Shown here one piece after another: positions 18,286 to 36,305 of a DNA stretch of 64,000 nt; within the stretch, counting starts at the first letter, position 1, and every line of letters starts with the position of its first letter. The position numbers and the translations under genes are program-made. The notes below the pieces were generated by a model. It was not told the DNA's origin. It searched no databases and saw nothing but the letters and a program-made list of their open reading frames with translations. Location of the stretch: contig NZ_JAMXFA010000006.1 of assembly GCF_025370785.1 (NCBI RefSeq), positions 156,924-220,923 on the forward strand. Direction: 5' to 3'. The stretch is from Laspinema olomoucense D3b (GTDB taxonomy: Bacteria > Cyanobacteriota > Cyanobacteriia > Cyanobacteriales > Laspinemataceae).

Positions 18286-18482
18286 AGTGATTTAAGAAGA
18301 TGCTATGGGATAGGGTAAGGTTCTGGATAGTCCTTCTTTCAGGGTATTTATTCCTCAACCCGATAAAATTCAGCCCTTTGGGTAAAACTAGCGCAGGGGT
18401 ACAGTAGTTTGGCGATAGACGATGGGGGATTTGGAGTTGGAGTTGGGGGGTAGAATAGTGTTAGTTGATAGAAGCAGTCGCC
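18286..18482. other. Divergent spacer between the SUMF1 gene and hypE
   Basis: A 197-base intergenic region that must hold two divergent promoters. I cannot single out either one. A G-rich run (GGGGGATTTGGAGTTGGAG) precedes hypE. Confidence 0.35.
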
Positions 18483-19529
18483 ATGATAGAAGATTTTACC
18501 CTAACCTGTCCGATTCCAATTTCTCAATATCCTCATGTGTTGTTAGCGCATGGGGGTGGGGGAACGTTGATGCGTCAGTTGATTGAACGGATGTTTTTGC
18601 CCGTGTTTGGGACAGCGGATGGGGTTCCTCATGATTCGGTAGCGTTGACGTTGCCGGGAACTCAGATTGCGATGACGACGGATTCTTATGTGATTCGTCC
18701 GCTATTTTTTCCCGGTGGGGATATTGGTTCCTTGGCGGTTCATGGGACGGTGAATGATTTGGCGATGAGTGGTGCTCGTCCATTGTATCTGACGGCAGGG
18801 TTTATTTTGGAGGAGGGGTTGCCGATGGAGACCCTGTGGCGGGTGGTCCAGTCGATGCAGGCGGCAGCAACAAAGGCGGGGGTACAAATTGTGACGGGGG
18901 ATACCAAGGTGGTCGATCGCGGCAAGGGAGATGGGATTTTTATCAATACCGCAGGATTGGGGATGATTGAACATTCCCAGGCGATCGCACCGCAGTCGGT
19001 CCGGGAGGGGGATGTGTTGCTGATTAATGGGGATTTGGGACGACATGGGATTGCGATTATGGCAGTCCGTGAGGGATTGGAATTTGAAACCACAATTGAG
19101 AGTGATTCAGCGGCGATCGCCTCCCTTGTCTTACAGTTACTAGATGCTGGCATCGAAATTCACTGTTTGCGCGACTTAACACGCGGTGGGTTATCCAGTG
19201 CTTTAAATGAAATTGCCACATCGGCAGGGGTGGGAATTGCCATTGATGAACGGGAAATTCCAGTGCAGGAACAGGTCCGGGGTGCTTGTGAGATTTTGGG
19301 ATTTGATCCGCTGTATGTGGCGAATGAGGGACGATTTGTAGCCTTTATTCCGGCACACTGTGCGGGTCGTGCTTTGGAGGTGATGAAGTCTCATCCGTTG
19401 GGGGTAGATGCGGTGGCGATCGGGACCGTGACGGCGACGGGTCAGGGTTTGGTGACGTTGCGCAGTCAAATTGGTGCCAGTCGGATTCTGGATATGCTTA
19501 GTGGAGAACAGTTGCCTCGGATTTGTTGA
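18483..19529 (+). CDS. hypE: Hydrogenase maturation factor HypE
   Basis: Dehydrates the carbamoyl group received from HypF into a thiocyanate on its C-terminal Cys, the CN ligand donor for the NiFe site. The protein has 348 residues and ends PRIC, with the acceptor Cys as last residue. [16 protein letters not shown] at the N terminus and the PurM-like ATP-binding fold ([24 protein letters not shown]) are typical. I prefer the ATG at 18483 to a TTG at 18465. It is separated by 733 bases from hoxE, so it probably has its own promoter. Confidence 0.95.
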
Positions 19530-20262: not shown

Positions 20263-20805
20263 ATGCAATCAACTGCGGCAAAGAGCGACGATCACGAAAA
20301 ATCCGCCCCGAAGGAAGCAAAAGCGGCAACAGAGCATCCCAGTGGGGATAAGCGCTTTAAGGTCCTGGATATCACGATGAAGCGAAATCAGTATCGACAA
20401 GATGCGCTAATCGAGGTACTTCATAAAGCTCAGGAAGCGTTTGGTTATCTGGAAGAAGATGTATTACTGTATGTAGCGCGGAATCTGAAGCTGCCGTTAA
20501 GTCGGGTTTACGGGGTGGCGACATTTTACCATTTGTTTTCCCTGAAACCGAGTGGATCTCATACCTGCGTAGTGTGCTTGGGAACCGCCTGTTATGTGAA
20601 AGGAGGGGGTGAGGTACTCGCGTCCTTGGAGAAACAGACGGGGATTCAGCAAGGGGAAACCACGGCAGATGGGGAGGTTTCCCTGATCACGGCCCGGTGT
20701 GTGGGGGCCTGTGGGATTGCGCCGGTGGTGGTGTATGACGGAACAGTCGCCGGGAAGCAGACTTCGGAACAAGCACTCGACCATATTAAAGGCTGGATCA
20801 AGTAG
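20263..20805 (+). CDS. hoxE: Bidirectional [NiFe] hydrogenase diaphorase subunit HoxE
   Basis: A 180-residue NuoE-like subunit that carries one [2Fe-2S] cluster in the electron path between NAD(P)/ferredoxin and the hydrogenase. The cluster ligands are C105, C110 (CLGTAC), C146 and C150 (CVGAC). The first 30 residues are a charged, Ala/Lys-rich extension. It is the first gene of hoxEFUYH; the gap to hoxF is 91 bases. Confidence 0.96.
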
Positions 20806-20896: not shown

Positions 20897-22531
20897 ATGG
20901 ATTTAGCGGAACTTCGGGAGATTGGCGAGAAAGAACGGACTGCCCAGAAACCTATTCGGGTACATTGTTGTACTTCCACGGGGTGTCAGGCGGCGAACTC
21001 CCTAGGGGTGAAGAAGAATTTAGAACAGACTTGTAAAGATAAGAAGATGGGCGATCGCGTCCAAGTGGTGGGCGTCGGTTGTATGGGATTTTGCGGGCGA
21101 GGACCGTTGGTCCAAATTGAGGCCCAGAACAAGCTATATGAAGAAGTGACCCCATCGGATGCCGCCAGCATTATTGAGGCGATCGATGGCGGGACGGCAA
21201 GTGCGACGGAAGGAGACCCGGAACATCCATTTTTTGCGCGGCAGATGCGGATTGTGCGGGAAACCAGTGGGAAAATTGACCCGGAACGGATTGAGGAATA
21301 TATCGCCGTTGGGGGATATGAACCGCTGTATAAAGCGATTCATGAACTCACGCCTGCGGAAACTATTGATGAAGTGAGTAAGAGTGGATTGCGGGGACGG
21401 GGTGGCGGTGGATATCCTACGGGGTTGAAATGGGCGACTGTCGCGAAAATGCCGGGACAGCAGAAGTATGTGATTTGCAATGCTGATGAAGGCGACCCTG
21501 GTGCATTCATGGATCGGTCCGTGTTGGAAAGTGACCCCCATCGGGTGTTAGAGGGAATGGCGATCGCCGCTTATGCGATCGGGGCCAGTGAGGGATATAT
21601 TTATGTGCGGGCAGAATATCCCCTGGCGATCGAACGGTTGCAAAAGGCCATTAAACAAGCGAAAAAATACGGGATTCTCGGCAGTCAAATTTTTGATTCC
21701 CCCTTTGACTTTAAAATCGAGATTAGAATTGGGGCCGGGGCCTTTGTTTGCGGGGAAGAAACCGCATTAATTCAGTCCATTGAAGGAGGACGAGGCAATC
21801 CCCGTCCGCGTCCGCCCTATCCCGCCCAAGAAGGACTCTGGAAGTCGCCGACGTTAATTAATAACGTAGAAACCTTTGCCAACATTCCGGCGATTATCCG
21901 AGAGGGTGGCGAATGGTATGCCGGAATAGGGACGGAAAAGAGTAAGGGAACCAAGGTTTTTGCCCTCACGGGTCAGATTCGTAACAATGGACTGATAGAA
22001 GTCCCGATGGGAATTACCCTGCGTGAGATTGTCGAAGAAATGGGCGGCGGCGTCCCCAATGGCAAAGTTAAAGCAGTACAAACCGGCGGACCTTCGGGAG
22101 GTTGTATTCCCGAGTCGATGTTAGATACATCAGTGGATTACGATTCCCTGGTAAAAATCGGGTCGATGATGGGTTCTGGCGGCATGGTGGTCATGGATGA
22201 AAAGACCAGCATGGTTGAAGTTGCCCGATTTTATATGGAGTTCTGCCGGGGTGAATCCTGCGGGAAATGTATTCCCTGTCGGGCGGGAACCGTCCAAATG
22301 TATCAAATGCTGACTAAAATCCTGAATAAAGAGGCGACGCTACAGGATATCCACAACCTGGAACAACTGTGTGACATGGTGAAAAATACCAGTTTGTGCG
22401 GGTTAGGCATGACGGCCCCCAACCCGGTGATGAGTACCTTGCGCTACTTCAAAGAGGAGTATTTAGCCCTGTTGAAAGACAGTCCGAATGGGAAAGTTCC
22501 CGTAGGGACAGCGGCATCGGTCACCCGATAG
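20897..22531 (+). CDS. hoxF: Hydrogenase diaphorase subunit HoxF
   Basis: A 544-residue NuoF-like flavoprotein that exchanges electrons with NAD(P)H and, per recent work on cyanobacterial Hox, flavodoxin/ferredoxin. It has an N-terminal thioredoxin-like [2Fe-2S] domain (HCCTSTGC near residue 26, VGCMGFCG near 60), then the NADH/FMN domain (GLRGRGGGGYPTGLKW near 165, CNADEGDPGAF, GAGAFVCGEETALI). A C-terminal [4Fe-4S] site follows (SCGKCIPCRAG with a later SLCGLG Cys). Length and order match HoxF of other cyanobacteria. Confidence 0.96.
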   Translation: MDLAELREIGEKERTAQKPIRVHCCTSTGCQAANSLGVKKNLEQTCKDKKMGDRVQVVGVGCMGFCGRGPLVQIEAQNKLYEEVTPSDAASIIEAIDGGTASATEGDPEHPFFARQMRIVRETSGKIDPERIEEYIAVGGYEPLYKAIHELTPAETIDEVSKSGLRGRGGGGYPTGLKWATVAKMPGQQKYVICNADEGDPGAFMDRSVLESDPHRVLEGMAIAAYAIGASEGYIYVRAEYPLAIERLQKAIKQAKKYGILGSQIFDSPFDFKIEIRIGAGAFVCGEETALIQSIEGGRGNPRPRPPYPAQEGLWKSPTLINNVETFANIPAIIREGGEWYAGIGTEKSKGTKVFALTGQIRNNGLIEVPMGITLREIVEEMGGGVPNGKVKAVQTGGPSGGCIPESMLDTSVDYDSLVKIGSMMGSGGMVVMDEKTSMVEVARFYMEFCRGESCGKCIPCRAGTVQMYQMLTKILNKEATLQDIHNLEQLCDMVKNTSLCGLGMTAPNPVMSTLRYFKEEYLALLKDSPNGKVPVGTAASVTR

Positions 22532-22599: not shown

Positions 22600-23316
22600 A
22601 TGTCAGTCGTTACCTTAAAAATTAATGGAGTTGACCTCGCGATCGAAGAGGGTACAACAATTCTGGATGCCTCCAAAGAAGCAGGGATTAGGATTCCCAC
22701 CCTCTGTCATCTCAACGGCGTCACCGATGTGGGCGCTTGTCGGTTGTGCCTGGTAGAAATTGCCGGGGTGAATAAAATGCTGCCGTCTTGTGTAACTCAA
22801 GTGGCAGAAGGCATGGATATCACCACGGACAGCGATCGCCTGCAAGAATACCGGCGGATGATTGTGGAAATGCTATTTTCCGAAGGCAATCACGTTTGTG
22901 CCGTTTGTGTAGCTAATGAAAACTGTGAATTGCAAGATTTAGCCATTGAAGTGGGCATGGATCACAGTCGATTTCCCTATCGTTTCCCCGATCGCGAAAT
23001 TGATATTTCCCATAAACAATTCGGCATCGATCATAACCGTTGCATCCTCTGTACAAGATGTGTGCGAGTCTGTGACGAAATTGAAGGTGCTCATGTTTGG
23101 GACGTCGCTTATCGCGGAGTTGCCGCCAAAGTAGTCACCGGATTAAATCAACCTTGGGGAAGCGTTGATGCTTGTACCAGTTGTGGCAAATGTGTCGAAG
23201 CTTGTCCAACCGGGTCCATTTTCCGCAAGGGTTCTACCGTTGCCGAAATGACTCGCGATCGCAGCAAATTAGAATTTATCGTGAATGCCAGGGAGAACAA
23301 ACAATGGACAAGATAA
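22600..23316 (+). CDS. hoxU: Hydrogenase diaphorase subunit HoxU
   Basis: A 238-residue NuoG-N-terminal-like electron-transfer subunit. It starts MSVVTLKINGVD at the ATG at 22600, with GAGAG just upstream; a longer in-frame extension overlaps hoxF and is rejected. Fe-S motifs in order: an N-terminal [2Fe-2S] (CHLNGVTDVGACRLC with a later SC), a His/Cys [4Fe-4S] (HVCAVCVANENC) and two ferredoxin-type [4Fe-4S] sites (CILCTRCVRVC, CTSCGKCVEACP). It joins the diaphorase to HoxY. Its 3' end overlaps hoxY by 13 bases. Confidence 0.95.
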   Translation: MSVVTLKINGVDLAIEEGTTILDASKEAGIRIPTLCHLNGVTDVGACRLCLVEIAGVNKMLPSCVTQVAEGMDITTDSDRLQEYRRMIVEMLFSEGNHVCAVCVANENCELQDLAIEVGMDHSRFPYRFPDREIDISHKQFGIDHNRCILCTRCVRVCDEIEGAHVWDVAYRGVAAKVVTGLNQPWGSVDACTSCGKCVEACPTGSIFRKGSTVAEMTRDRSKLEFIVNARENKQWTR

Positions 23317-23852
23317 AACTCGCCACTATTTGGTTAGGTGGATGTTCCGGTTGTCATATGTCCTTTCTCGACCTAGACGAATGGTTAATTGAACTCGCCC
23401 AGAAAGTCGATGTCGTCTTCAGTCCCGTGGGTTCTGATATCAAAGAATATCCCGAAGATGTGGATGTTTGCCTGGTAGAAGGGGCCGTTGCCAACGAGGA
23501 AAATATGGAACTCCTCATCGAAGCAAGAAAGCGGACCAAATTCCTAATTTCCTTCGGAGATTGCGCCGTCACCGCCAACGTTCCGGGAATGCGCAATATG
23601 TTAGGAAAAGCGGAAACCGTCCTCAAACGTTGCTACCTAGAATTAGGCGACGAAACCCGCCAGCTTCCCCATTTTCCTGGCATCGTCCCCGAACTCCTCG
23701 ATCGCGTCCGTCCCGTCCATGAAGTCGTCGATGTCGATCTGTTCATGCCCGGTTGTCCCCCCTCTGCCCAAAGAATTCTAGCCACAGTCGAACCCCTTCT
23801 CCGGGGTGAATTACCCGTCATGAAAGGGCGGCCCATGATTAAATTCGGATAA
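23304..23852 (+). CDS. hoxY: [NiFe] hydrogenase small subunit HoxY
   Basis: The 182-residue small subunit carrying the [4Fe-4S] cluster next to the active site. It starts MDKIKLATIWLGGCSGCH, giving C14 and C17; later ligands are in FGDCAV and FMPGCPPS. It is short, like other HoxY proteins, and has no Tat signal, so the enzyme stays in the cytoplasm. The ATG at 23304 lies inside the end of hoxU, indicating coupled translation. Confidence 0.95.
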   Translation: MDKIKLATIWLGGCSGCHMSFLDLDEWLIELAQKVDVVFSPVGSDIKEYPEDVDVCLVEGAVANEENMELLIEARKRTKFLISFGDCAVTANVPGMRNMLGKAETVLKRCYLELGDETRQLPHFPGIVPELLDRVRPVHEVVDVDLFMPGCPPSAQRILATVEPLLRGELPVMKGRPMIKFG

Positions 23853-23899: not shown

Positions 23900-23926
23900 G
23901 TGAAAATCAGTGAAATCAGTGGTTAC
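23900..23926. repeat. GTGGTTAC repeat copy placed directly before the hoxH start
   Basis: A 27-mer matching the 16643-16669 copy at 24 of 27 positions ends 4 bases before the hoxH ATG. It occupies the place where a ribosome-binding site would be expected, and no purine-rich SD is seen there. Confidence 0.7.
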
Positions 23927-23930
23927 TAAT

Positions 23931-25355
23931 ATGCCTAAAACAATCGTCATCGATCCAGTCACCCGCATCGAAGGTCATGCCAAAATCTCCGTCTATTTAG
24001 ACGATGCCGGAGAAGTGGAAGATGCCCGCTTCCATGTGGTCGAATTTCGCGGATTTGAGAAATTTTGCGAAGGTCGTCCCATGTGGGAAATGGCCGGAAT
24101 TACTGCTAGGATTTGCGGAATTTGTCCCGTTTCCCACCTCCTCGCCTCAGCCAAAACAGGGGATAAAATTCAAGCGGTAAAAATCCCCCCTGCCGGTGAA
24201 AAATTGCGGCGAATGATGAATTTAGCCCAAATTACTCAGTCTCATGCCCTCAGTTTCTTCCATCTAAGTAGTCCGGATTTTCTGTTAGGATGGGATAGCG
24301 ACCCAGCAAAACGGAATGTCTTCGGATTGATTGCCGCAGACCCGGAGTTAGCCAGAAGTGGAATTCGCTTACGGCAATTTGGACAGAAAATTATTGAACT
24401 ATTAGGGGCGAAAAAGATTCACCCCTCTTGGGCAGTTCCTGGTGGAGTGCGATCGCCCTTATCCGAAGAAAGTTGCACCTGGATTCGCGATCGCCTCCCC
24501 GAATCCAGGCAAACCATTGAAACTGCCCTGGGTTTATTTAAAACCCTCCTGGACCGCTTTTCCACCGAAGTCGAAACTTTTGGCAAATTCCCCTCCTTAT
24601 TTATGGGATTAGTGGGGAAAGATGGACTCTGGGAACATTACGACGGCAAAATTCGGTTTACCGATAGTGAGGGCAATATTGTCGCCGACAACCTCAGCGA
24701 AGATGACTATGAATCCTACCTCGGCGAAGCAGTTGAAGCCTGGTCTTATCTGAAATTTCCCTATTATAAACCCTTGGGATATCCTAACGGAATCTATCGG
24801 GTTGGACCTTTGGCCCGGGTGAATATCTGTAGTCGCATGGGAACCGAGGCAGCGGATAGAGAGTTGCTAGAATTTCGCGATCGGGCCGGTGGCGTTGCCA
24901 CCTCTTCCTTCTACTATCATTATGCCCGCTTAATTGAAATTCTCTGTGCCATTGAACATATAGAACAACTCGTCAATGACCCGGATATCGTTTCCCCCCG
25001 AACTCGCGCCACTGCGGGGATTAATAACCTGGAAGGCATCGGGGTGAGTGAAGCCCCTCGCGGCACATTATTCCATCATTATAAGGTGGATGAAAATGGG
25101 TTAATTAAGAAGGTGAACCTAATTATTGCCACAGGACAAAATAACCTAGCAATGAACAAAACGGTCACGCAAATTGCCCAGCATTTCATTCATGGCAACG
25201 AGATTCAAGAAGGACTCTTAAACCGAGTTGAAGCAGGAATTCGCGCCTTTGACCCTTGTCTGAGTTGTTCAACTCATGCAGCAGGCCAAATGCCGTTGCA
25301 TATTGAATTAATTAATGCTAAAGGGACAGTTGTGAATGAAATTTATCGGCATTAA
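23931..25355 (+). CDS. hoxH: [NiFe] hydrogenase large subunit HoxH
   Basis: The 474-residue catalytic subunit binding the NiFe(CN)2CO centre. The L1 motif [10 protein letters not shown] gives C62 and C65; the L2 motif DPCLSCSTH gives C443, C446 and H449. A 25-residue extension follows H449 and should be cut off by HoxW after Ni insertion. The start is the ATG at 23931 ([19 protein letters not shown]); a GTG at 23910 lies inside the repeat and is rejected. All four nickel ligands are intact, so an active enzyme is expected. Confidence 0.96.
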
Positions 25356-25537
25356 AAGTAGTGGGTTGGGTAGTCGGAGGGAGACCTAATCCCCTAACCC
25401 CCTTCCCTGCAAAGGAAGGGGGAACTGGAAAGGTTTTTTTCGGGAAGGGAAGGGGTTTGGGGAATAGTAAAGAACCAGGTTTTTAAAAGCCGGATTAGGT
25501 CAACCTCGGGGAAGAGACCACCGAAACGGGAGACATC
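25356..25537 (+). repeat. Spacer after hoxH with GC-rich hairpin
   Basis: CCCCCTTCC (25398-25406) and GGAAGGGGG (25414-25422) form a 9-bp hairpin of a common cyanobacterial repeat type. It could attenuate transcription between hoxH and the downstream accessory genes. No T-tract follows at once, although TTTTTT occurs about 13 bases later (25435-25440). Confidence 0.5.
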
Positions 25538-25804
25538 ATGACTAAAGAAAATCTCTATTTATGTATGGGTTCTGCTTGTCATCAACTGGGAGTTTATGAG
25601 GTCTTACCCCGACTCCAAGAGTTGATTATTCGGTATGAACTCAAGGAAAAAATTGAGCTTAAAGGGTCTTTTTGTTTAGAGACCTGTAGCGTGGGAATTG
25701 TGATGAAATTCAAGGAAAAAGTATTCACAAAAATTACGCCCGAGAATATCGAGGCCAAGTTCAGTGAAGAAATTTTACCGAGTATTTTAGCCGTGGTTGA
25801 ATAA
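25538..25804 (+). CDS. Small thioredoxin-like [2Fe-2S] ferredoxin
   Basis: An 88-residue NuoE/HoxE-like minimal ferredoxin. Cluster ligands are C9 and C14 (CMGSAC) and C46 and C50 (CLETC), the C-x4-C and C-x3-C spacing of thioredoxin-fold [2Fe-2S] proteins. There is no helical N-terminal domain as in HoxE. It is the first of three closely packed genes (2-base gap to the PAS gene) in the hox-hyp run. Similar small proteins accompany [FeFe] hydrogenases in Firmicutes (from memory). A redox input to the PAS/SpoIIE pair is an inference. Confidence 0.8.
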   Translation: MTKENLYLCMGSACHQLGVYEVLPRLQELIIRYELKEKIELKGSFCLETCSVGIVMKFKEKVFTKITPENIEAKFSEEILPSILAVVE

Positions 25805-25806
25805 CA

Positions 25807-26313
25807 ATGGTAACTAGCGAAAAGACCTTGTGGGAACTCCTGTGGGAGTATGATCCAAATGGATTGATTGTGTTAAATGAGAATATGACGATCGCCGTTG
25901 TTAATCCCGCATTGTGCAAAATGTTTAAGGTAACGGCAGATGAAGTGGTGGGAAAACCGGCAGTTTCGTTATTGGGGACCGTGGATGAATTTCAGCGAGT
26001 CTGGGAAAACAATGAAGTGATTCGCGGAAAAGAAAAAGAATATCCCCAATACAATCTCTATGTGCGTCAGGTCCTCTTTTCAATTCGGGATCAGAATGCG
26101 ATCGCCTGCATTATGGTGGATATTACCGAAGAGTGGCAACGGAAGAAAGAGTTACTCGAACTGAAGCGAGAAACCGTTGCCAAAGTCAATGAAGTGGTGG
26201 ATAACCAGATGAAAGTCGCCCAAGAAATTGCCGGGTTGCTGGGAGAAACCACAGCGGAAACCAAAGTCAGTTTATTGAAAATTCTGAAACTGGTTGAGAG
26301 GGAGACGCTGTAG
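25807..26313 (+). CDS. PAS-domain protein of the hydrogenase accessory module
   Basis: A 168-residue cytosolic protein. Residues about 8-115 form one PAS domain (LIVLNENMTIAVVNPALCKMF, then VVGKPAVSLLG and IACIMVDITEE). Residues about 118-168 are helical and charged, including MKVAQEIAGLLGETTAETK. To my memory this tail is typical of PAS segments in Firmicute hydrogenase-like sensor proteins, where a [FeFe]-hydrogenase domain is attached; none is present here. No kinase or cyclase output domain is visible, so it probably signals by protein contact, most likely with the SpoIIE protein encoded next. Confidence 0.8.
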   Translation: MVTSEKTLWELLWEYDPNGLIVLNENMTIAVVNPALCKMFKVTADEVVGKPAVSLLGTVDEFQRVWENNEVIRGKEKEYPQYNLYVRQVLFSIRDQNAIACIMVDITEEWQRKKELLELKRETVAKVNEVVDNQMKVAQEIAGLLGETTAETKVSLLKILKLVERETL

Positions 26314-26314
26314 C

Positions 26315-27475
26315 ATGGATAGCTTTTTAGATATTTTTGATTTAAGTTTAAATAAAAAAGGGGAAGAACTCTGCGGCGATCGCGTCCGGTTTCGCAAGAC
26401 TCCCGAGAAAACTACTATTGTCCTTTCCGATGGATTAGGCAGCGGGGTGAAAGCGAATATTCTCGCCACCCTCACGACAGAAATTCTCATTTCCATGCTG
26501 AATGAGGATGTTCCGTTAGAGGAAGTGATTAAGACAGTAATTGGCACTTTACCGATTTGTCAAGTCAGAAAAATTGCTTATGCCACTTTTACCATTTTAC
26601 AAATCGATAACCATACGGATCTATTTAAAGTTATCAACTTTGACAATCCTCCTCCCTTGTATTTTGACCAAGGAAAATTGGTCAAGTTAGAGGGTAAAAC
26701 TGAGAAAATTTTAGAAAAAAAAATTACCGTTTATGAAGGACGTCTTAAAGAGGGAGACTTTTTAGGATGTATGAGTGATGGAGTTCTCTATGCCGGGTTA
26801 GGGGTGGCGTTAAATTTTGGCTGGGGATGGGATAATGTGGCCCAATATATCGAAGGACTCTTTCTAACTCAAACCCGCAATGCTAGACGAATTGTCCAAA
26901 AAACAATCGCCGAAACCCATTCGCTTTATGGCGGAAAAATAGGAGATGATGCGACCTTTGTGGGGGTGTATGTTCGCCAACGCAATCCTTTAATGATTTT
27001 CACCGGCCCTCCTTTAGATAATAGTCATGACCAACAGTATGTAGAACGCTTGTTAACCTTTGAAGGACGCAAAGTGGTTTGTGGAGGGACGACGGGAAAT
27101 ATCGTTGCCAAATATCTGGGAGAAACCATTGAAATGGATATTTCCACGATGCGGCGTGACTTACCCCCCATCGGTAAATTAAGTGCAATTGATTTAGTGA
27201 CAGAAGGGATTTTAACCCTGTCCAAATGTCTGGAAGTTTTGAAAAATTGCAACTGTGATGTGACGCGGTTACCCTCCGACCAAAATGGATCCGTATTGTT
27301 AGCCCAAGAAATTTTACAAGCGGACTCTATTTTATTTATGGTGGGACAAAAGATTAATGAGTTTTATCAGAATCCTTTACTGCCGAAGAATATTTCAATT
27401 CGCCGCAGTCTAGTAGAGGAAGTGGTTAAGTTTTTGCGGGACAAACAGAAGGAAGTTACGTTAGAATATTGTTAA
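26315..27475 (+). CDS. SpoIIE-type PP2C serine phosphatase with extra C-terminal domain
   Basis: A 386-residue protein. Residues about 5-220 form a PP2C/SpoIIE phosphatase: LSDGLGSG with D39 and G40, CMSDGVL near residue 150, and GDDATFVGVY near 212 supply the expected metal-binding Asp residues. The last 160 residues form a distinct domain (RKVVCGGTTGNIVAKYLG) that I know only from SpoIIE proteins near hydrogenase genes. No membrane segment is present. The start at 26315 follows the PAS stop directly. The usual partner would be a phosphorylated anti-sigma-antagonist-like protein; none is encoded here. Confidence 0.82.
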   Translation: MDSFLDIFDLSLNKKGEELCGDRVRFRKTPEKTTIVLSDGLGSGVKANILATLTTEILISMLNEDVPLEEVIKTVIGTLPICQVRKIAYATFTILQIDNHTDLFKVINFDNPPPLYFDQGKLVKLEGKTEKILEKKITVYEGRLKEGDFLGCMSDGVLYAGLGVALNFGWGWDNVAQYIEGLFLTQTRNARRIVQKTIAETHSLYGGKIGDDATFVGVYVRQRNPLMIFTGPPLDNSHDQQYVERLLTFEGRKVVCGGTTGNIVAKYLGETIEMDISTMRRDLPPIGKLSAIDLVTEGILTLSKCLEVLKNCNCDVTRLPSDQNGSVLLAQEILQADSILFMVGQKINEFYQNPLLPKNISIRRSLVEEVVKFLRDKQKEVTLEYC

Positions 27476-27492
27476 AGAATCAAATCAAGAAA

Positions 27493-27993
27493 ATGCTGCC
27501 AATTCCACAGGAGTCCCCGGCAATTCTGGCGATCGGATATGGAAACGACCTGCGTCGCGATGACGGTGTAGGACAACGGGTAGCGGAGGAAGTGGCATCC
27601 TGGGGATTACCCAAGGTGCGATCGCTATCAGAACATCAACTCACGCCGGAATTGGCTGAACCTCTGTCTGAGGTAGACTTGGCAATCTTTATCGATGCCT
27701 ATCCCGCCACAGAGGAACAAGGTCTACAAGTGGTCAAACTTGACGGCGATGATCCCATGTCACCCCAGAGTTTAGGTCACAGTAGTGACCCTTCATCCCT
27801 GCTGATTCTCGCTAAAACCCTTTATGGCAAGGCCCCCCAAGGGTGGTTAGTGGCAATTCCGGCGATAGATTTCGAGTTTGGGGACAGGTTTTCGGCGGTT
27901 ACTGAACGAGGAATGGCCGAGGCATTAGTGGCGATCGCGGAGTTGATTGAAACTGGGGGTCGAGATGGGGAGGATGGGGGAGAGAGAAAATAG
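27493..27993 (+). CDS. hoxW: Hydrogenase maturation protease HoxW
   Basis: A 166-residue endopeptidase of the HybD/HyaD family that removes the HoxH C-terminal peptide once nickel is in place. GYGNDLRRDDGVG near residue 15 contains the first metal-binding Asp; FIDAYP supplies the second, and the third ligand is expected in the GHSSDPSS region. The start at ATG 27493 is preferred to a TTG at 27469. The C-terminal 15 residues (GGRDGEDGGERK) are low complexity. It lies between the signalling trio and hypA in the same transcription direction. Confidence 0.9.
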   Translation: MLPIPQESPAILAIGYGNDLRRDDGVGQRVAEEVASWGLPKVRSLSEHQLTPELAEPLSEVDLAIFIDAYPATEEQGLQVVKLDGDDPMSPQSLGHSSDPSSLLILAKTLYGKAPQGWLVAIPAIDFEFGDRFSAVTERGMAEALVAIAELIETGGRDGEDGGERK

Positions 27994-28001
27994 AGGGGAT
28001 T

Positions 28002-28343
28002 ATGCATGAAGTTAGCTTGATGGAAAATACTTTAAATATTGCTTTAGATTGTGCTAAAGCACAAAATGCCAGCAAAATTCATCGCCTCAAAATGCGCGTG
28101 GGTGACTTATCAGGCGTGGTTCCCGATGCCTTAGAATTTGCCTTTGATGTGGTGACCCAAGGGACGATCGCCGAAGGGGCAAAATTTGAAATTGAACGAG
28201 TGCCCGTGGTCTGTCATTGTCCCACCTGCGATCGCGACTTTGAACCCATTGATTTGTTTTATGAATGTCCTCATTGTCATCAACTCACCCATCATATTCA
28301 AAGCGGACAAGAAATCGAGTTAACATCTTTGGAGGTCTCATAA
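28002..28343 (+). CDS. hypA: Hydrogenase nickel-insertion protein HypA
   Basis: A 113-residue metallochaperone delivering Ni2+ to HoxH with HypB. It starts MHEVSLMENTL, where His2 is the nickel ligand. The zinc site is made by CHCPTC and CPHCH near residues 71-95. It begins 8 bases after hoxW. Confidence 0.96.
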   Translation: MHEVSLMENTLNIALDCAKAQNASKIHRLKMRVGDLSGVVPDALEFAFDVVTQGTIAEGAKFEIERVPVVCHCPTCDRDFEPIDLFYECPHCHQLTHHIQSGQEIELTSLEVS

Positions 28344-28346
28344 CTG

Positions 28347-29156
28347 ATGTGTACTAATTGCGGATGCAGCGTCCTCGGAGAAGTCGGAATCCATTCTCAT
28401 AGTCATGACCATACTCATGATAACGGCCATACTCATCATAGTCATGAAAATGGGCATGACCATCACCATCATCATGATCAAACCCATCAAACCATTGCGG
28501 TGGGTCAAGCCGTTTTAGCCAAAAATGACCGCCTTGCTGAACGGAATCGCGGCTATTTTATGGCCAAAAACTTGCTAGTTCTGAATGTGCTTTCTTCTCC
28601 GGGTTCGGGGAAAACTGCCTTCTTAGAACGGATGGTTCAGGATATTGGCAGTCGCATTCCCACCGGCATCATTGTCGGAGACTTAGAAACGGATAATGAT
28701 GCCGTTCGACTCAGTAATAGTGGGGCCGCAGCAGTCCAAATTACCACAGGAACAGTCTGTCATTTGGAATCCGATATGGTGTTGAAAGCGGCCCAACAGC
28801 TTAATTTAGATGCCTTAGAAATATTAGTGATTGAAAATGTGGGCAATCTGGTTTGTCCTGCTGCTTATGATTTAGGGGAAGACCTGCGAGTGGTATTGTT
28901 GTCGGTGACGGAAGGGGAAGATAAACCGTTGAAATATCCGACGATGTTTAAGTCGGCGCAAGTGGTAATTATTAGTAAAATTGACCTTGCCGAAGCGGTG
29001 GAGTTTGACCGGAATAAGGCGTTAGAAAATATTAAAAAGATTGCCCCCCAAGCGGCAATTTTTGAAGTATCCTCCCGGAAGGGACAAGGGATGGCGGAGT
29101 GGTATGGGTATTTAGAACAGCATTTAAAAAAGTCTCCAGTTAGTGTAGTTTCATGA
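28347..29156 (+). CDS. hypB: Hydrogenase nickel-incorporation GTPase HypB
   Basis: A 269-residue SIMIBI GTPase that supplies nickel with HypA. The N-terminal MCTNCGC is a CxxCxC high-affinity metal motif. A His-rich region covers about residues 15-48 with roughly 16 His, suggesting nickel storage. The P-loop is [10 protein letters not shown] near 79, followed by [19 protein letters not shown] with the Cys of the GTPase-domain metal site, and SKIDL for guanine recognition. It starts 3 bases after hypA. Confidence 0.96.
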
Positions 29157-29228
29157 ATTTCTGAAGGTTCGTAACTACGAACATCACGAGAAGGACGGAA
29201 TTTGTTCCTAAGAACAGGGGAAGTATCT
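29157..29228. repeat. Spacer with GTTCGTAACTACGAAC palindrome
   Basis: GTTCGTA and TACGAAC form a hairpin at 29168-29183 in the hypB-hypF gap. It belongs to the same loose repeat family as the units near 19553, 36244 and 37464. AGGGGAAG precedes hypF. Confidence 0.55.
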
Positions 29229-31571
29229 ATGAATTTATTATTGAATTCTCCTCTTATTACGCCTAACTTAAGTCGCCTCTCTATTACAGTTTGCGGTGCG
29301 GTTCAGGGGGTGGGATTTCGTCCGTTTATTTATCGACTTGCTACGGAACTGGAACTAAACGGATGGGTGAATAATTCCGCCCAAGGCGTGTTTATCGAAG
29401 TAGAAGGGACTCAGGAAAAATTAGAAACTTTTTTACTGCGATTGGAACGGGAAAAACCGGCTATTTCCTTTATTCAATCCCTGGAATCTACTTGGTTAGA
29501 ACCTGTCGGGTTTACCCAGTTTGAAATTCGGCCCAGTGTGGCGGGGGCAAAAACGGCGGTAGTGTTGCCAGATATTGCCACTTGTCCCGATTGTTTGCAG
29601 GAGATTTTTGATCCTCAGAATCGCCGCTATCGCTATCCCTTTACCAATTGCACTAACTGCGGTCCTCGCTATACAATTATTCGGGGATTACCTTACGATC
29701 GCGCCAATACGTCGATGCAGGAATTTAAAATGTGTCCCGACTGTCAGGCGGAATATGAAAATCCCTTAAATCGGCGGTTTCACGCCCAACCGAATGCTTG
29801 TCCTAACTGTGGTCCGCAGTTACAATGTTGGAAAGGGTGGGGCGAAGTCTTGGCAACGGGCGATCGCGCTTTAAAAGATGCCATTTCTACAGTGAATCGC
29901 GGTCAAATTTTGGCAGTTAAGGGATTAGGGGGATTTCATCTGATGGTTGATGCAGGCAACTCAGCAGCAGTCCGTCGTCTGCGGCGTTGTAAGCATCGGG
30001 AAGAAAAACCCTTTGCCGTAATGTATCCCTCGTTGGAACAAGTTCGCCAAGAGTGTCAGGTAACGGCGATTGAGGAGAGACTGTTGCGATCGCCAGAATG
30101 TCCAATTGTGTTATTACGGAGGTTGTCGAACTCGTATAACCAAATCGCCCCCGAAGTGGCCCCGGATAATCCCTATTTGGGGGTGATGTTGCCGTACACA
30201 CCCTTACATCATCTCCTGTTGGCGGGGTTGGGTAAACCTGTAGTAGCGACCAGTGGCAATCTTTCTGATGAACCGATTTGTATCGATGAATGGGAAGCGC
30301 GCGATCGCCTAAAAGACATTGCTGATAAATTTCTCGTCCACAATCGCCCAATTGTTCGGGCGGTGGATGACTCGGTTGTGAGAGTCGTGGCAGGGCGAGA
30401 AATGGTGATGCGACGGGCCCGAGGGTATGCGCCTTTACCGATTTCCCTGAAGGTTACCCCGGATTCTCCCCCCTCTCCCCCGCCGATTTTAGCGGTAGGT
30501 GCTCATTTGAAAAGTGCGATCGCCATTGGGGTATTCCCGCAAATTTTTGTGAGTCAGCATATCGGAGACTTAGAAACCCCCCAAGCATTCCAAGCATTTC
30601 AGGAGGCGACGGCCAGTTTACAGCAACTCTATGAAGCAACCCCGCAAGTTGTCGCCCGGGATGCCCATCCCGACTATCGGTCCACCCGATTTGCTGAAGG
30701 ATTGGCGTTGCCACAAATAGCGGTTCAGCATCATTATGCCCATGTTCTCGCTTGTATGGCGGAAAATCAACTTTTAGAGGAAACGGTCCTGGGAGTGGCC
30801 TGGGATGGGACGGGATATGGATTAGATGGGACAATTTGGGGGGGTGAGTTTCTGCGGGTTTCTCCCCAATCCTGGGACCGAGTGGCCCATTTTCGCACTT
30901 TTCCCCTGTTGGGAGGGGACAAGGCGGTGAAGGAACCTCGCCGAGTGGCCTTGGGATTGTTATATGAAGTGTTGGGCAATCGGTTGTTTACTCCAGGGGT
31001 GACTCACAATTATCAACATATCCTGGAGGCGTTTACCCCGGTAGAGTTGACCCTGCTGCGATCGATGTTAGAGAAACAGATTAATACACCTGTCACCTCT
31101 AGTGTGGGACGGTTGTTTGATGGGGTGGCGGCGATCGCCGGGTTGAAATCTCAGATTAGTTTTGAAGGACAAGCGGCGACTGCCTTGGAATTTGCCCTAG
31201 AAGGTTGGACAACCCAGGAGAGTTATCCTTTACCCTTGCAGACCGGGGACGGGGTGGCAATTGCCGATTGGGAACCGACAATTTTAGCAATCTTAAGAGA
31301 TGTAGGCGATCGCCTCCCGAGGGGAATTATTTCCGCTAAATTTCATAATACCTTAGTAAACTCTATCCTGGCCGTGGCCCAATGGGTTGGCGAGGAACGA
31401 GTTGTGATCACCGGCGGTTGTTTTCAAAATGCCTATTTAACCGAACAGGTGATTCATCAGTTAAAATTAAAGGGGTTCCGTCCTTACTGGCATCAACGGA
31501 TCCCGCCCAATGATGGGGGGATTGCCCTGGGACAAGGGGTCGCCGCCTATCGAAATCTGACTCAGGAGTAA
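29229..31571 (+). CDS. hypF: Carbamoyltransferase HypF
   Basis: A 780-residue enzyme that makes carbamoyl-adenylate from carbamoyl phosphate and passes the carbamoyl group to HypE for CN ligand synthesis. Domains in order: acylphosphatase (VCGAVQGVGFRPFIYR, about residues 20-100), two zinc fingers (CPDCLQ with CTNCGP, CPDCQA with CPNCGP, about 115-200), a YrdC-like domain (about 210-390) and a Kae1-like domain with the HHYAH metal motif near 500. I use the ATG at 29229, which has a good SD, instead of an upstream TTG. Confidence 0.96.
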   Translation: MNLLLNSPLITPNLSRLSITVCGAVQGVGFRPFIYRLATELELNGWVNNSAQGVFIEVEGTQEKLETFLLRLEREKPAISFIQSLESTWLEPVGFTQFEIRPSVAGAKTAVVLPDIATCPDCLQEIFDPQNRRYRYPFTNCTNCGPRYTIIRGLPYDRANTSMQEFKMCPDCQAEYENPLNRRFHAQPNACPNCGPQLQCWKGWGEVLATGDRALKDAISTVNRGQILAVKGLGGFHLMVDAGNSAAVRRLRRCKHREEKPFAVMYPSLEQVRQECQVTAIEERLLRSPECPIVLLRRLSNSYNQIAPEVAPDNPYLGVMLPYTPLHHLLLAGLGKPVVATSGNLSDEPICIDEWEARDRLKDIADKFLVHNRPIVRAVDDSVVRVVAGREMVMRRARGYAPLPISLKVTPDSPPSPPPILAVGAHLKSAIAIGVFPQIFVSQHIGDLETPQAFQAFQEATASLQQLYEATPQVVARDAHPDYRSTRFAEGLALPQIAVQHHYAHVLACMAENQLLEETVLGVAWDGTGYGLDGTIWGGEFLRVSPQSWDRVAHFRTFPLLGGDKAVKEPRRVALGLLYEVLGNRLFTPGVTHNYQHILEAFTPVELTLLRSMLEKQINTPVTSSVGRLFDGVAAIAGLKSQISFEGQAATALEFALEGWTTQESYPLPLQTGDGVAIADWEPTILAILRDVGDRLPRGIISAKFHNTLVNSILAVAQWVGEERVVITGGCFQNAYLTEQVIHQLKLKGFRPYWHQRIPPNDGGIALGQGVAAYRNLTQE

Positions 31572-31578
31572 TTTCAGA

Positions 31579-31812
31579 ATGTGTTTAGCAATACCGGGCC
31601 AAATTATCAGTATTAGTGAGGATGCCGAACCGTTGATGAGAACGGGCAAGGTCAGCTTTGGCGGCGTGGTCAAAACCGTGAATCTTGCCTATGTTCCCGA
31701 GGCGAAAGTCGGGGACTATGCGATCGTTCATGTCGGGTTTGCCTTGAGTATCATTGATGAGGGCGAAGCGCAAGAAACTTTAGATTATTTTAAACAAATC
31801 CAAGAGGTCTAA
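31579..31812 (+). CDS. hypC: Hydrogenase assembly chaperone HypC
   Basis: A 77-residue chaperone for the HoxH precursor and for HypD. It begins MCLAIPGQI, with the essential Cys2. It starts 7 bases after hypF and ends the hox-hyp run. HypD, its usual partner, is not encoded in this window. Confidence 0.96.
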   Translation: MCLAIPGQIISISEDAEPLMRTGKVSFGGVVKTVNLAYVPEAKVGDYAIVHVGFALSIIDEGEAQETLDYFKQIQEV

Positions 31813-32390: not shown

Positions 32391-35300
32391 ATGAGTACGA
32401 GAACATTTGCGACTATAGACGCGAACGAGGCCGTGGCCCGGGTTGCGTATAAATTAAATGAAGTGATTGCCATTTATCCGATTACCCCCGCTTCACCGAT
32501 GGGAGAATGGGCCGACGCCTGGATGTCAGAAGGGCGTCCAAACCTCTGGGGAACGATTCCCTCGGTGGTGGAAATGCAAAGTGAGGCGGGGGCGGCGGGG
32601 ACGGTACATGGTTCCTTGCAAACGGGCTCCTTAACCACCACCTTTACCGCTTCCCAGGGATTACTGTTAATGATCCCCAACCTCTACAAAATAGCGGGGG
32701 AACTCACTTGTGCAGTAATTCACGTTGCCGCCCGATCGCTGGCAGCCCAGGCCCTTTCCATTTTTGGCGATCATAGTGATGTGATGGCGGTCCGCAGTAC
32801 GGGATTTGCCCTCTTATGTTCCGCATCGGTCCAGGAAGCCCATGATTTTGCTTTAATTGCTCAATCGGCAACCTTGAAATCCCGCGTCCCCTTCATTCAC
32901 TTCTTTGATGGGTTCCGGACTTCTCACGAAATTCAAAAAGTAGAACTGTTAGAAGATGAGGACCTGCGATCGCTGATTGATGATGCAGGAGTCTTCGCCC
33001 ATCGCGATCGCGCCTTAACTCCCGATCGCCCCGTCTTACGGGGAACCGCCCAAAACCCCGATGTCTATTTCCAAGCGAGAGAAACAGTCAACCCCTTCTA
33101 TACCGCCTGTTCCGACATCGTACAGCAGGCAATGGACGACTTTGGGGAACTCACCGGACGCAAGTATCAATTGTTCGAGTATTACGGTGCACCCGACCCT
33201 GATCGCCTGATTATCTTAATGGGTTCCGGTTGCGAAACCGTTCATGAAACTGTAGACTACCTCAACGCCCAAGGGGAAAAAGTCGGCGTCTTGAAAGTGC
33301 GACTGTATCGCCCCTTGGATATGAAACGGTTGGTTGCTGCAATCCCGGAAACTGTTAAGGCGATCGCAGTCTTAGATCGCACCAAAGAACCAGGGGCCGG
33401 AGGTGACCCCTTGTATCTTGATGTCGTCACCGCGATGCATGAAGAATGGACGGGCGATCGCTTGCCGAAACTCGTTGGAGGGCGCTATGGCTTATCCTCC
33501 AAAGAATTCACCCCGGCGATGGTTAAAGCTATCTATGATAATCTTAGCCAAGCCAAACCCAAAAATCACTTCACCATCGGCATCAATGATGATGTCACTC
33601 ACACTTCCCTAGATTACGACTCGAACTTCTCCACCGAACCCGATAGCGTAGTTCGGGCGATGTTCTATGGATTAGGGGCCGATGGAACCGTGGGGGCCAA
33701 CAAAAACTCTATTAAAATTATTGGAGAAGAAACAGACAATTATGCCCAAGGCTACTTTGTCTATGACTCCAAAAAATCCGGGGCAATTACCATTTCCCAC
33801 CTACGGTTTGGACCCCAGCCGATTCGTTCCACTTACCTGATTGATCAAGCCAACTTTATTGGCTGTCACCAGTGGATTTTCCTGGAAAAATTAGACGTTT
33901 TAAGCGCAGCGGCCCCGGGTGCAATCTTCCTCTTAAATAGCCCCTATGCGGCTGAGGAACTTTGGAATCAACTCCCCATTGAAACCCAAGAAAAAATTGT
34001 CCGCAAAGGCTTAAAAGTCTATACCATTGATGCCAACAAAGTAGCCCGTGACAGCGGCATGAGTGGACGGATTAACACCGTCATGCAGGTTTGTTTCTTC
34101 GCCTTATCCGGAGTTTTGCCTCGGGAAGAAGCCATTGCCCAAATCAAGAAGGCGATCGAGAAAACCTACGGCAAAAAAGGCCCAGAAATCGTCCGGATGA
34201 ACCTGCAAGCCGTGGATAATACCCTGGCAAACCTGTTTGAAGTTCCCCTGGGACAAGCCAGCAGTTCCTTACATAAACAACCTGCTGTTCCCGATTTAGC
34301 CCCCGCCTTTGTGCGCGAAGTCGAAGGCAAAATGCTGGTCAAAGAAGGGGAAGTGCTGCCCGTGAGTGCCTTACCTTGTGATGGTACTTATCCCACTGCC
34401 ACCTCCAAATGGGAAAAACGGAATATTGCTACAGAAATTCCTGTTTGGGACCCGGATGTTTGCGTTCAATGCGGCAAATGTATCATGGTTTGTCCCCATG
34501 CCGTCATTCGAGGGAAAGTTTACGAACCGGCAGAACTTGCCAATGCACCGGCTACCTTCAAGGCAACGGATACTAAAGATAAAGACTTTGCCGGAACTCA
34601 GTTTACCATTCAAGTCTCCCCGGAAGACTGTACCGGCTGCGGCATCTGCGTCGAAGTCTGTCCCGCCAAAAACAAATCCATGCCTGCCCTGAAAGCGATT
34701 AACATGGAACCGCAGATTCCCCTGCGGGAACCTGAACGGGAAAACTGGGAATTCTTCATGAACTTACCCAACCCCGATCGCCGCACATTGCATCTCGATC
34801 GCATTCGTCAACAACAACTCCAAGAACCCCTGTTCGAGTTCTCCGGCGCTTGTGCCGGATGTGGCGAAACCCCGTATCTAAAGTTAGTCTCTCAACTCTT
34901 TGGCGATCGCAGTGTCATCGCCAACGCCACCGGCTGTTCCTCCATCTATGGCGGCAACCTCCCCACCACCCCCTGGGCGCAAAACGCCGAAGGACGGGGA
35001 CCCGCATGGTCCAACTCCCTGTTTGAAGATAACGCCGAATTCGGCCTCGGATTCAGGGTTTCCATCGATAAACAAGCCCAATTCGCCGCCGAATTACTGC
35101 AAAAACTCAGCAGTGAGATTGGGGACAACCTGGTTACCGACCTTCTCAACGCCAGCCAGAAAACCGAAGCGGATATCTGGGAACAACGCGATCGCGTAGC
35201 AGCCCTCAAAGAAAAATTACAAGGGCTGAACTCCCCGGATGCCAAGCAACTTGCCAGTCTAGCCGATTACCTCGTCAAAAAAGATGTGTGGATTATCGGC

Positions 35301-35972: not shown

Positions 35973-35978
35973 AGATCC

Positions 35979-36222
35979 GGAGACCCCACCCAACCCTCCC
36001 CTTGCCAAGGGGAGGGCTGCGGAGACCCCACCCAACCCTCCCCTTGCTAAGGGGAGGGCTGCGGAGACCCCACCCAACCCTCCCCTTGCTAAGGGGAGGG
36101 CTCATCCAGTCCGGTCCCCTCCCCTTAGCAAGGGGAGGGCTAGGGTGGGGTCCTTCCCAAGTTATGAGGCTAATCCGGTCCCCTCCCCTTGGCAAGGGGA
36201 GGGTTAGGGTGGGGTCCTTCCC
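35979..36222. repeat. Compound repeat: three direct and two inverted CCTCCCC hairpin units
   Basis: Three 42-bp tandem units begin at 35979, 36021 and 36063 (each GGAGACCCCACCCAACCC, then CTCCCCTTGCYAAGGGGAG). Two units in the opposite orientation follow at about 36111-36158 and 36176-36222, 65 bases apart. Every unit carries the same 10-bp hairpin seen at 11951-12000. The array starts 7 bases after the nifJ stop. It is not a CRISPR: the units are adjacent or unevenly spaced and self-complementary. Confidence 0.9.
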
Positions 36223-36243
36223 CGCATCTCCCCAACCCGGAAA

Positions 36244-36261
36244 TAACGACTAAAGTCGTTA
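36244..36261. repeat. TAACGACT/AGTCGTTA hairpin repeat
   Basis: TAACGACT (36244-36251) and AGTCGTTA (36254-36261) are perfect 8-bp arms with a 2-base loop, followed by CTACG. Copies of the core occur at 37464-37511. Confidence 0.75.
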
Positions 36262-36305
36262 CTACGGACATCTCTCCCATTTCCATAAAAGGAGAACATA
36301 ACATA

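Follow-up and report, generated by a model that had tools for sequence, protein, structure and literature searches.

A [2Fe-2S], PAS and SpoIIE-type phosphatase gene trio in a cyanobacterial hox cluster: a candidate truncated sensor cassette beside a [NiFe] hydrogenase

Introduction

The described systems closest to the genes analyzed here are the hfsABCD operon of Thermoanaerobacterium and the HydS sensor hydrogenases. We compare them with three adjacent genes in the [NiFe] hox-hyp cluster of the cyanobacterium Laspinema olomoucense D3b, which code for a small [2Fe-2S] protein, a PAS protein and a SpoIIE-type phosphatase. They lie in a 64,000 nt stretch of contig NZ_JAMXFA010000006.1 (assembly GCF_025370785.1, positions 156,924 to 220,923 of the forward strand), which we call the window; positions are counted from its first letter. 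Other loci and genomes are cited by our own labels (L and G, respectively).

According to the passages of PMC11837493 on hfsABCD, this operon has the layout of the loci called fused below, HfsC is homologous to serine phosphatases, and HfsA aligns poorly with known proteins, in part resembling the large subunits of [FeFe] hydrogenases. In T. saccharolyticum, deletion of hfsA or hfsB leads to more ethanol and more adhE transcript, deletion of hfsB to a higher hydrogenase activity in the benzyl-viologen assay, and deletion of hfsC or hfsD to a flux towards lactate. The authors argue for regulation and discuss Rex, with an expression opposite to the simple expectation (PMC5707799).

Discussions of how the cyanobacterial Hox hydrogenase is regulated centre on LexA, AbrB proteins and glutathionylation (PMC4463661, PMC4264147); the words phosphatase and phosphorylation are absent from the main texts of both papers. 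The neighbourhoods of hox genes are described in PMC3858816, PMC2674450 and PMC5186783, whose main texts do not contain the word phosphatase. The legend of a figure showing a hydrogenase neighbourhood in an actinobacterium names nuoE-like, phoR and spoIIE genes (PMC7325909). We have found no description of the trio in cyanobacterial hox clusters in the open-licence PMC literature, nor of a cyanobacterial function for it, as an initial annotation of the window made from its letters had already stated.

Our results favour the view, to which we give a probability of about 55%, that the trio is a truncated Hfs/HydS sensor cassette which has changed its partner, and acts as a phosphatase switch controlled by redox state or H2 in fermentative H2 metabolism.

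Results

The three genes are packed on the + strand between hoxH and hoxW: 25538-25804 codes for the [2Fe-2S] protein (88 amino acids), 25807-26313 for the PAS protein (168 amino acids) and 26315-27475 for the phosphatase (386 amino acids), with gaps of two bases and one base between them. The end of hoxH (25355) is 182 bases before the first gene, while the open reading frame of hoxW, from a TTG at 27469, shares 7 bases with the phosphatase gene; a later hoxW start is possible. We have taken ATG 26315 as the start of the phosphatase, although the automatic list of reading frames begins at TTG 26294. The tight packing and the three protein types had been pointed out in the initial annotation, and both are borne out.

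The 88 amino acid protein has a PF01257 match in residues 3-73 which falls just under the cut-off (E 8.8e-5, 22.8 bits against 24.8); its relative in L069 clears it with 31.0 bits. The best match among PDB sequences is 7p5h_A, residues 569-636, the C-terminal part of the alpha subunit of an Fe-hydrogenase (E 2e-7). The cysteines of its CX4C...CX3C set (C9, C14, C46 and C50) are invariant in 42 of 42 aligned homologues, which are part of the 58 listed, all of them found by similarity to the window protein. The protein is thus probably of the thioredoxin-like [2Fe-2S] type, with the kind of fold found in HoxE and HydC. By its position, it would be the equivalent of HfsA.

The second protein contains a PAS domain (PF13426 PAS_9, E 8.8e-8), with no match to the H-cluster domain PF02906 or to PF04060 and no 4Fe-4S motifs. 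Its C-terminal helix, QMKVAQEIAGLLGETTAETK, is also found at the PAS end of fused [FeFe] sensors: PAS domain and helix are 36% identical to the end of the 563 amino acid protein of L045, and 20-28% identical to three others. In the structure model (predicted TM-score, pTM, 0.58) the PAS core extends up to residue 105; some 60 residues (107-167) then form a helix, at low confidence. The model matches many PAS domains, including those of PYP, LOV and CitA (listed VIA rows with Z 11.6-13.6), so no ligand can be named from the fold.

The third protein belongs to the SpoIIE-type PP2C family, as indicated by PF07228 in residues 31-218 (E 1.4e-18, 68 bits, cut-off 25) and by Asp22, Asp39, Asp155, Asp211 and Asp212, which are invariant in all 98 phosphatases compared; its activity is predicted from these features. 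Distant PDB matches are 5mqh, 3t91 and 5ucg. The phosphatases of fused loci are homologous to it from end to end, C-terminal domain included: with L042 the figure is 34% over residues 4-385, and identity with the fused-type loci among L087-L130 is 37-43%.

This C-terminal domain (26978-27472, + strand, residues 222-386) has an alpha/beta structure of about 165 residues which AlphaFold2 models confidently (predicted local distance difference test score, pLDDT, 92.7; pTM 0.88). It has conserved GPP, GGT, EGxxT and GxxxN motifs, and residues G231-P233, G257-G258, P284, E297-G298, T301, G344 and N348 are invariant in the 98 fused and short forms. Pfam leaves the window copy unmatched, and its results for the relatives do not rise above noise: at most, Rad9 is matched by 4 of 48 members (E 0.034), and the lowest E value (0.013) comes from one member. 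A profile search of PDB sequences only gives matches with E 0.2 or worse. The top Foldseek match is methylglyoxal synthase, and it is weak (E 2.4e-3, TMq 0.41). On the VIA scale, where unmatched models typically reach Z 7 to 8, methylglyoxal synthase has Z 6.0 (root mean square deviation 3.5, 103 aligned) and domains of molybdopterin enzymes rank first: 6s6y_F has Z 9.4 (deviation 3.2, 114 aligned) and six further chains have Z 8.7-7.6. The molybdopterin-enzyme domains are not among Foldseek's listed top 50. In an hhalign comparison with E. coli MgsA, CGGTTGNIVAKYLG is found opposite ATGTTGNLISRATG of MgsA (probability 57.8, E 1e-4, 44 columns); the aligned MgsA loop binds the phosphate of the substrate. 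These matches hint at a ligand-binding domain.

In order to follow the trio among cyanobacteria, we have used a class sample of 378 genomes of oxygenic cyanobacteria, with cut-offs of E <= 1e-80 for the phosphatase, 1e-100 for HoxH and 1e-25 for the PAS protein. The phosphatase is found in 25 genomes from 16 genera, and the PAS search finds the identical 25. All of them are among the 120 genomes with HoxH (hypergeometric 5e-14, kinship ignored), a co-occurrence that the initial annotation had proposed to check. The [2Fe-2S] gene is found in 12 of 13 genomes searched, the sole miss being G262, which lacks all three genes. This recurrence of phosphatase and PAS protein in the same 25 genomes, and of the [2Fe-2S] gene in all but one of 13, shows that the trio is not a chance arrangement. 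G262 is a congener of the trio carriers G157 and G255, and has hoxH and hoxW.

A phylum sample of 386 genomes, which overlaps the class sample, gives a similar picture: HoxH is found in 87 genomes, including all 12 with the phosphatase (65-71% identity, or the window's own). Another 133 genomes match the phosphatase at only 30-38%. Most of these (131) are small genomes of our family f31, presumably Gastranaerophilales. In the seven low-identity loci that we have opened (five from f31, L045 and L046), the PAS protein has 563-573 amino acids.

The distance between phosphatase and hoxH is 907-1279 bp in 16 of the 25 carriers and 4.3 kb in one more, and the PAS and phosphatase genes are at most 183 bp apart in 22. 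According to the initial annotation, its reading would be refuted if homologues mostly lay away from hydrogenase genes. In cyanobacteria they do not, 16 being within 1.3 kb and 17 within 4.4 kb of hoxH, but 11 of 18 truncated cassettes from other phyla have no hydrogenase in view. In family f9 the set is scattered, yet all three genes are kept, some of them adjoining hoxH or hoxW. Where the cassette is broken up, parts of it remain with Hox genes: in G187 the [2Fe-2S] gene is found 51 bp after hoxH (50 bases between them), followed by the PAS gene, while the phosphatase gene is about 950 kb off; in G151 the [2Fe-2S] gene is found 129 bp after hoxH. In G109 and G119 the phosphatase gene adjoins hoxW, although hoxH is distant. 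In L040 (8852-10504) and L041 (8565-10440), phosphatase gene and hoxW adjoin each other, with hoxH 0.67-1.37 Mb off.

The distances of the three proteins among 18 loci, some of them close kin, correlate with those of HoxH: r is 0.93 for the phosphatase, 0.92 for the PAS protein and 0.66 for the [2Fe-2S] protein. No [FeFe] hydrogenase domain (PF02906) is found in the 25 trio cyanobacteria tested (24 of the 25 class-sample carriers, G616 being left out, and G187), with Thermotoga maritima as a positive control. In summary, the trio is inherited as a set with Hox, and it keeps its cysteines and PP2C aspartates in the absence of an H-cluster. Genera with this phosphatase cassette beside Hox include Arthrospira, Planktothrix, Oscillatoria and Okeania.

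We have searched species genomes with a profile of the phosphatase and analyzed the best 80 of 554 confirmed relatives, whose neighbourhoods are of two kinds. In the fused kind, found in most Firmicutes and some others, the PAS domain ends a protein of mostly 560-620 amino acids with 4Fe-4S motifs, an H-cluster and a small Fe-S domain (PF02906, PF04060 and PAS according to Pfam in L042 and L045). The small [2Fe-2S] gene is often found before the sensor and the phosphatase after it, with HydABC or HfsD nearby. In the short kind, which includes the window, the PAS protein has about 170 amino acids and no hydrogenase domain. The kinship with [FeFe] hydrogenase operons whose PAS segment is fused to an H-cluster sensor, named in the initial annotation, is therefore real, and so is the [NiFe] nature of the partner, with hoxH adjacent.

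A quick, unrooted tree of 98 phosphatases (the fragment L075 was left out, and L045 and L046 have long branches) unites the cyanobacterial copies, 30 in number (SH-aLRT 99), and nests them in a larger group of 47 (SH-aLRT 99) which also contains Chloroflexi, Verrucomicrobia, Armatimonadota, Desulfobacteraceae, Planctomycetota, KSB3, Omnitrophota, Thermotogota and Fusobacteriota. Every member of this larger group with a readable PAS gene has the short form. Automatic labels describe 49 of the 98 rows as fused, one of them wrongly (L079, with an unrelated PAS-GGDEF protein upstream), and L076 and L080, labelled as unknown, carry a short PAS gene. L099, from a metagenome-assembled genome of Fibrobacterota, has the short form and is placed among the fused ones. 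The sensor part is absent from the window, as had been noted, but cyanobacteria share this truncation with other bacteria, and it characterizes a clade that spans several phyla. The cassette therefore probably reached cyanobacteria already truncated. The order in which fused and short forms arose is not settled by an unrooted tree. Two alternative groupings are disfavoured by approximately unbiased (AU) tests: a clade of the cyanobacterial copies with the fused relatives of the same phylum (L042-L048; p 0.0195) and a clade of all truncated forms including L099 (p 0.0226), both with the same quick tree, its long branches (L045, L046) and groups named after the tree had been seen.

Short PAS genes are found outside cyanobacteria in 18 loci (L069-L074, L076-L086 and L099; L090, with a PAS match of 36%, and L123 were left out). 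Six of them adjoin an [FeFe] hydrogenase (PF02906): HydABC in L069, L077 and L082, the HfsD type in L074, L084 and L086. In L099 (2627-14346) the trio has carbon monoxide (CO) dehydrogenase genes (Prismane/CODH, CODH_A_N) on one side and a NuoEF-type diaphorase on the other, and hypFCDE is found upstream; we have seen no hydrogenase subunit in the DNA examined. We have rejected the idea that all hydrogenases beside these cassettes are of the [FeFe] type: PF02906 is present in six of seven loci, and L099 is a CO dehydrogenase cluster. In the other 11 loci, several of them on short contigs, no hydrogenase gene is in view. Ten of these 11 genomes have some hydrogenase match: four have [FeFe] matches and nine have [NiFe] matches, six of them [NiFe] only, although some short [NiFe] matches may be relatives of complex I. 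The presence of truncated cassettes beside [FeFe] hydrogenases, CO dehydrogenase with NuoEF, and [NiFe] Hox indicates that the sensor cassette has changed its redox partner. A NuoE/NuoF-type diaphorase is common to several partners: HoxEFU in the window, HydABC in L069, L077 and L082, and NuoEF in L099.

The commonest recurring neighbour without a label is a Rex-type gene, found in 9 of the 80 loci. It is at most 0.8 kb upstream in L077 (4358-5074), L078 (7537-8235) and L085 (7805-8446), after HydABC in L088 (14608-15267), L092, L096 and L110, and about 8 kb upstream in L106 and L109; domains have been checked in the four genes with coordinates. Rex is an NADH-sensing repressor.

The rest of the cluster is also on the + strand. 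Upstream of the trio we find hypE (18465-19529, TIGR02124, E 9.6e-139), hoxE (20263-20805, NF005747, E 6.6e-86), hoxF (20897-22531, NuoF family, E 2.6e-148, with a NuoE-like [2Fe-2S] stretch at the N-terminus), hoxU (22603-23316, NF005745, E 9.2e-127), hoxY (23304-23852) and hoxH, the [NiFe] large subunit (23925-25355, PF00374, E 4e-32). The starts of hoxU, hoxY and hoxH have been set at an internal ATG. The name of hoxY is taken from its place, its matches being [NiFe] small-subunit families (best VhuG, E 3.5e-43, below the cut-off). Downstream are hoxW (27469-27993, TIGR00072, E 2e-14), named as the HoxH-maturing endopeptidase from place and similarity, hypA (28002-28343, TIGR00100, E 7.4e-36), hypB (28347-29156, TIGR00073, E 2.4e-85), hypF (29202-31571, TIGR00143, E 3.5e-258) and hypC (31579-31812, TIGR00074, E 1.3e-23). 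After the hyp genes, region 32391-37331 codes for a pyruvate:ferredoxin oxidoreductase (32391-35972; PF01855, PF01558 and PF10371) and then a dihydroorotate-dehydrogenase-like protein; relatives of both are also found after the trio and hoxW in L054 and L067.

Scans of 25200-28100 are uninformative: 10 promoter-like sites are found where 4.7 would be expected, of which 8 lie on the opposite strand, and one terminator-like site where 3.0 would be expected. The gap between hoxH and the [2Fe-2S] gene contains a palindromic stretch (25404-25440), single copy in the window, which is not called as a terminator. A hybrid cluster protein gene is found between hoxF and hoxU in L031 (13149-14798; Prismane PF03063, E 1.4e-157), L050 (9223-10971), L033, L063 and L068, in loci with and without the trio; the window has no such reading frame between these genes. 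A hybrid cluster protein at hox has already been reported for Lyngbya and Arthrospira in a passage of PMC2674450.

Discussion

The trio shares with Hfs/HydS cassettes three genes in the same order beside a hydrogenase and a phosphatase homologous over its full length, while the H-cluster is absent. A phosphatase switch responsive to redox state or H2, proposed in the initial annotation, appears to be the best reading of these sequences, and that annotation as a whole is partly supported. The mechanism might be as follows. The small [2Fe-2S] protein would exchange electrons at the HoxEFU diaphorase, or receive them from ferredoxin. The redox state of Hox, ferredoxin and NAD(P)H, and the H2 level through HoxYH, would replace the lost H-cluster as input. 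The PAS protein would receive the state of the [2Fe-2S] protein, and its core and conserved C-terminal helix may form a signalling rod on the phosphatase. The latter would be toggled and dephosphorylate a Ser/Thr-phosphoprotein; the likeliest candidates are an anti-anti-sigma factor of the STAS type and proteins of fermentative H2 metabolism. In this way Hox, pyruvate:ferredoxin oxidoreductase and other fermentation genes would be tuned. The alpha/beta domain may bind a small, perhaps phosphorylated, ligand which tunes the phosphatase. The protein families suggest these roles in electron input, PAS transmission and phosphatase output; the only genetic evidence is that from the fused-type hfs operon.

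Several observations weigh against this proposal. The trio is absent from 95 of the 120 HoxH genomes, so it is not required for Hox, and 8 of the 25 cassettes are far from hoxH, three on the same contig at 0.67-1.37 Mb and five on other contigs. Outside cyanobacteria, G633 has a truncated cassette and no hydrogenase match of either type, and 5 of the 18 loci (L077, L079, L081, L083 and L085) show no [2Fe-2S] gene next to the pair: It may be optional or located elsewhere. In L074, L084 and L086 the neighbour of the HfsD type is a lone [FeFe] enzyme, without a labelled diaphorase next to it, which argues against a fixed docking site. Of 391 unlabelled neighbouring reading frames, we have named the Rex cluster and a handful of individual genes. 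HATPase_c_2 proteins are found in all 18 cyanobacteria tested; two of these genomes lack the trio, so their presence does not discriminate as a test for partner switching. Deletions of hfsA and hfsB yield less H2 despite the viologen result (PMC5707799), and we have found no functional test in any cyanobacterium in the open-licence PMC literature.

Other explanations should be considered. A possible one, which we consider rather doubtful, is that the working Hox enzyme is itself the sensor of H2 and redox state: The [2Fe-2S] protein would plug into HoxEFU as a second HoxE and read the electron flow, and the PAS rod would set the phosphatase, which would also read a phosphorylated metabolite by its C-terminal domain. 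The presence of L099 in a cluster of CO dehydrogenase and NuoEF has slightly raised our estimate for this explanation. If it is true, the sensor cassette works without H-cluster maturation, and it could spread to organisms with [NiFe] hydrogenase or CO dehydrogenase.

We find it unlikely that the trio is a general regulator of redox and fermentation which travels with hydrogenase genes, sensing the ferredoxin/NADH pool and acting by sigma-factor partner switching in dark anoxia, with Hox as one output of many. The Rex-type genes, the CO dehydrogenase setting of L099, the 11 of 18 truncated cassettes with no hydrogenase in view and the pleiotropic effects of hfs deletions on adhE and lactate (PMC5707799) would agree with such a role. 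On the other hand, all 25 cyanobacterial cassettes are found with HoxH, though in 258 of the 378 genomes no match to HoxH reaches the cut-off, and 10 of the 11 genomes whose cassettes are not adjacent to a hydrogenase still have a match to one.

Less probable still is a control of Hox assembly or maturation instead of transcription. With a reduced pool, the phosphatase would dephosphorylate, for example, HoxH, HoxW or one of the Hyp proteins, and the completion of new Hox would thereby be confined to fermentative conditions. In fact, hoxW is the next gene both in the window, where its listed reading frame overlaps the phosphatase gene, and in 9 of the 18 named cyanobacterial loci (L051-L068), the phosphatase gene stays by hoxW in G109 and G119 at a distance from hoxH, and hypFCDE is upstream of the L099 cassette. 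Nevertheless, hoxW is commonly a neighbour of hox genes regardless, and cassettes outside cyanobacteria are also found beside [FeFe] hydrogenases, which are not known to need HoxW or Hyp. Finally, a neutral hitch-hiker, acquired once beside hox and kept by linkage with no role in Hox, is disfavoured and very improbable: The patchy distribution (25 of 378 genomes) and the single cyanobacterial clade would fit, but the aligned members retain their catalytic and Fe-S residues and the three genes persist together though unlinked in G109, G119, G151 and G187.

If the trio is a sensor cassette with a new partner, this module keeps its parts while the neighbouring enzyme changes from [FeFe] to [NiFe], which separates the role of the PAS protein and phosphatase from that of the H-cluster. 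A phosphatase cassette beside Hox is also a gene set for deletion in cyanobacteria.

Comparison with known systems

The trio resembles hfsABCD in its gene order, which is that of homologous fused loci, in a phosphatase with a C-terminal domain, in the PAS domain with its helix and in the adjacent hydrogenase; this likeness is based on the homologous loci and the published description of the operon. It differs from hfsABCD in that the PAS protein of the window has no H-cluster, 4Fe-4S motifs or PF04060, and in that the partner is [NiFe] Hox, not [FeFe] HfsD. The phosphatase of the window has the PF07228 domain and the aspartates of SpoIIE/RsbU-type PP2C phosphatases, but it lacks their N-terminal sensor or membrane part and has an extra alpha/beta domain. 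The HoxJ system of regulatory [NiFe] hydrogenases is also a PAS-coupled way of reading the state of a hydrogenase. A PAS domain is involved in both cases (the one of HoxJ is mentioned in a passage of PMC8163306); however, the trio has no separate sensor hydrogenase or histidine kinase, and its output is a phosphatase. In the Group C (M2f) HydS proteins of Thermotoga maritima and Ruminococcus albus, as described in sections of PMC10055695 and PMC8163306, the PAS domain is the presumed transmitter and the operon includes a catalytic hydrogenase, as in our case. Unlike HydS, the PAS protein of the window has no hydrogenase domain, so it cannot sense H2 by itself. In summary, the trio belongs, as a variant, to an already known type of sensor cassette rather than forming a kind of its own: What sets it apart is that it rides with a [NiFe] Hox hydrogenase in genomes where no H-cluster domain is found.

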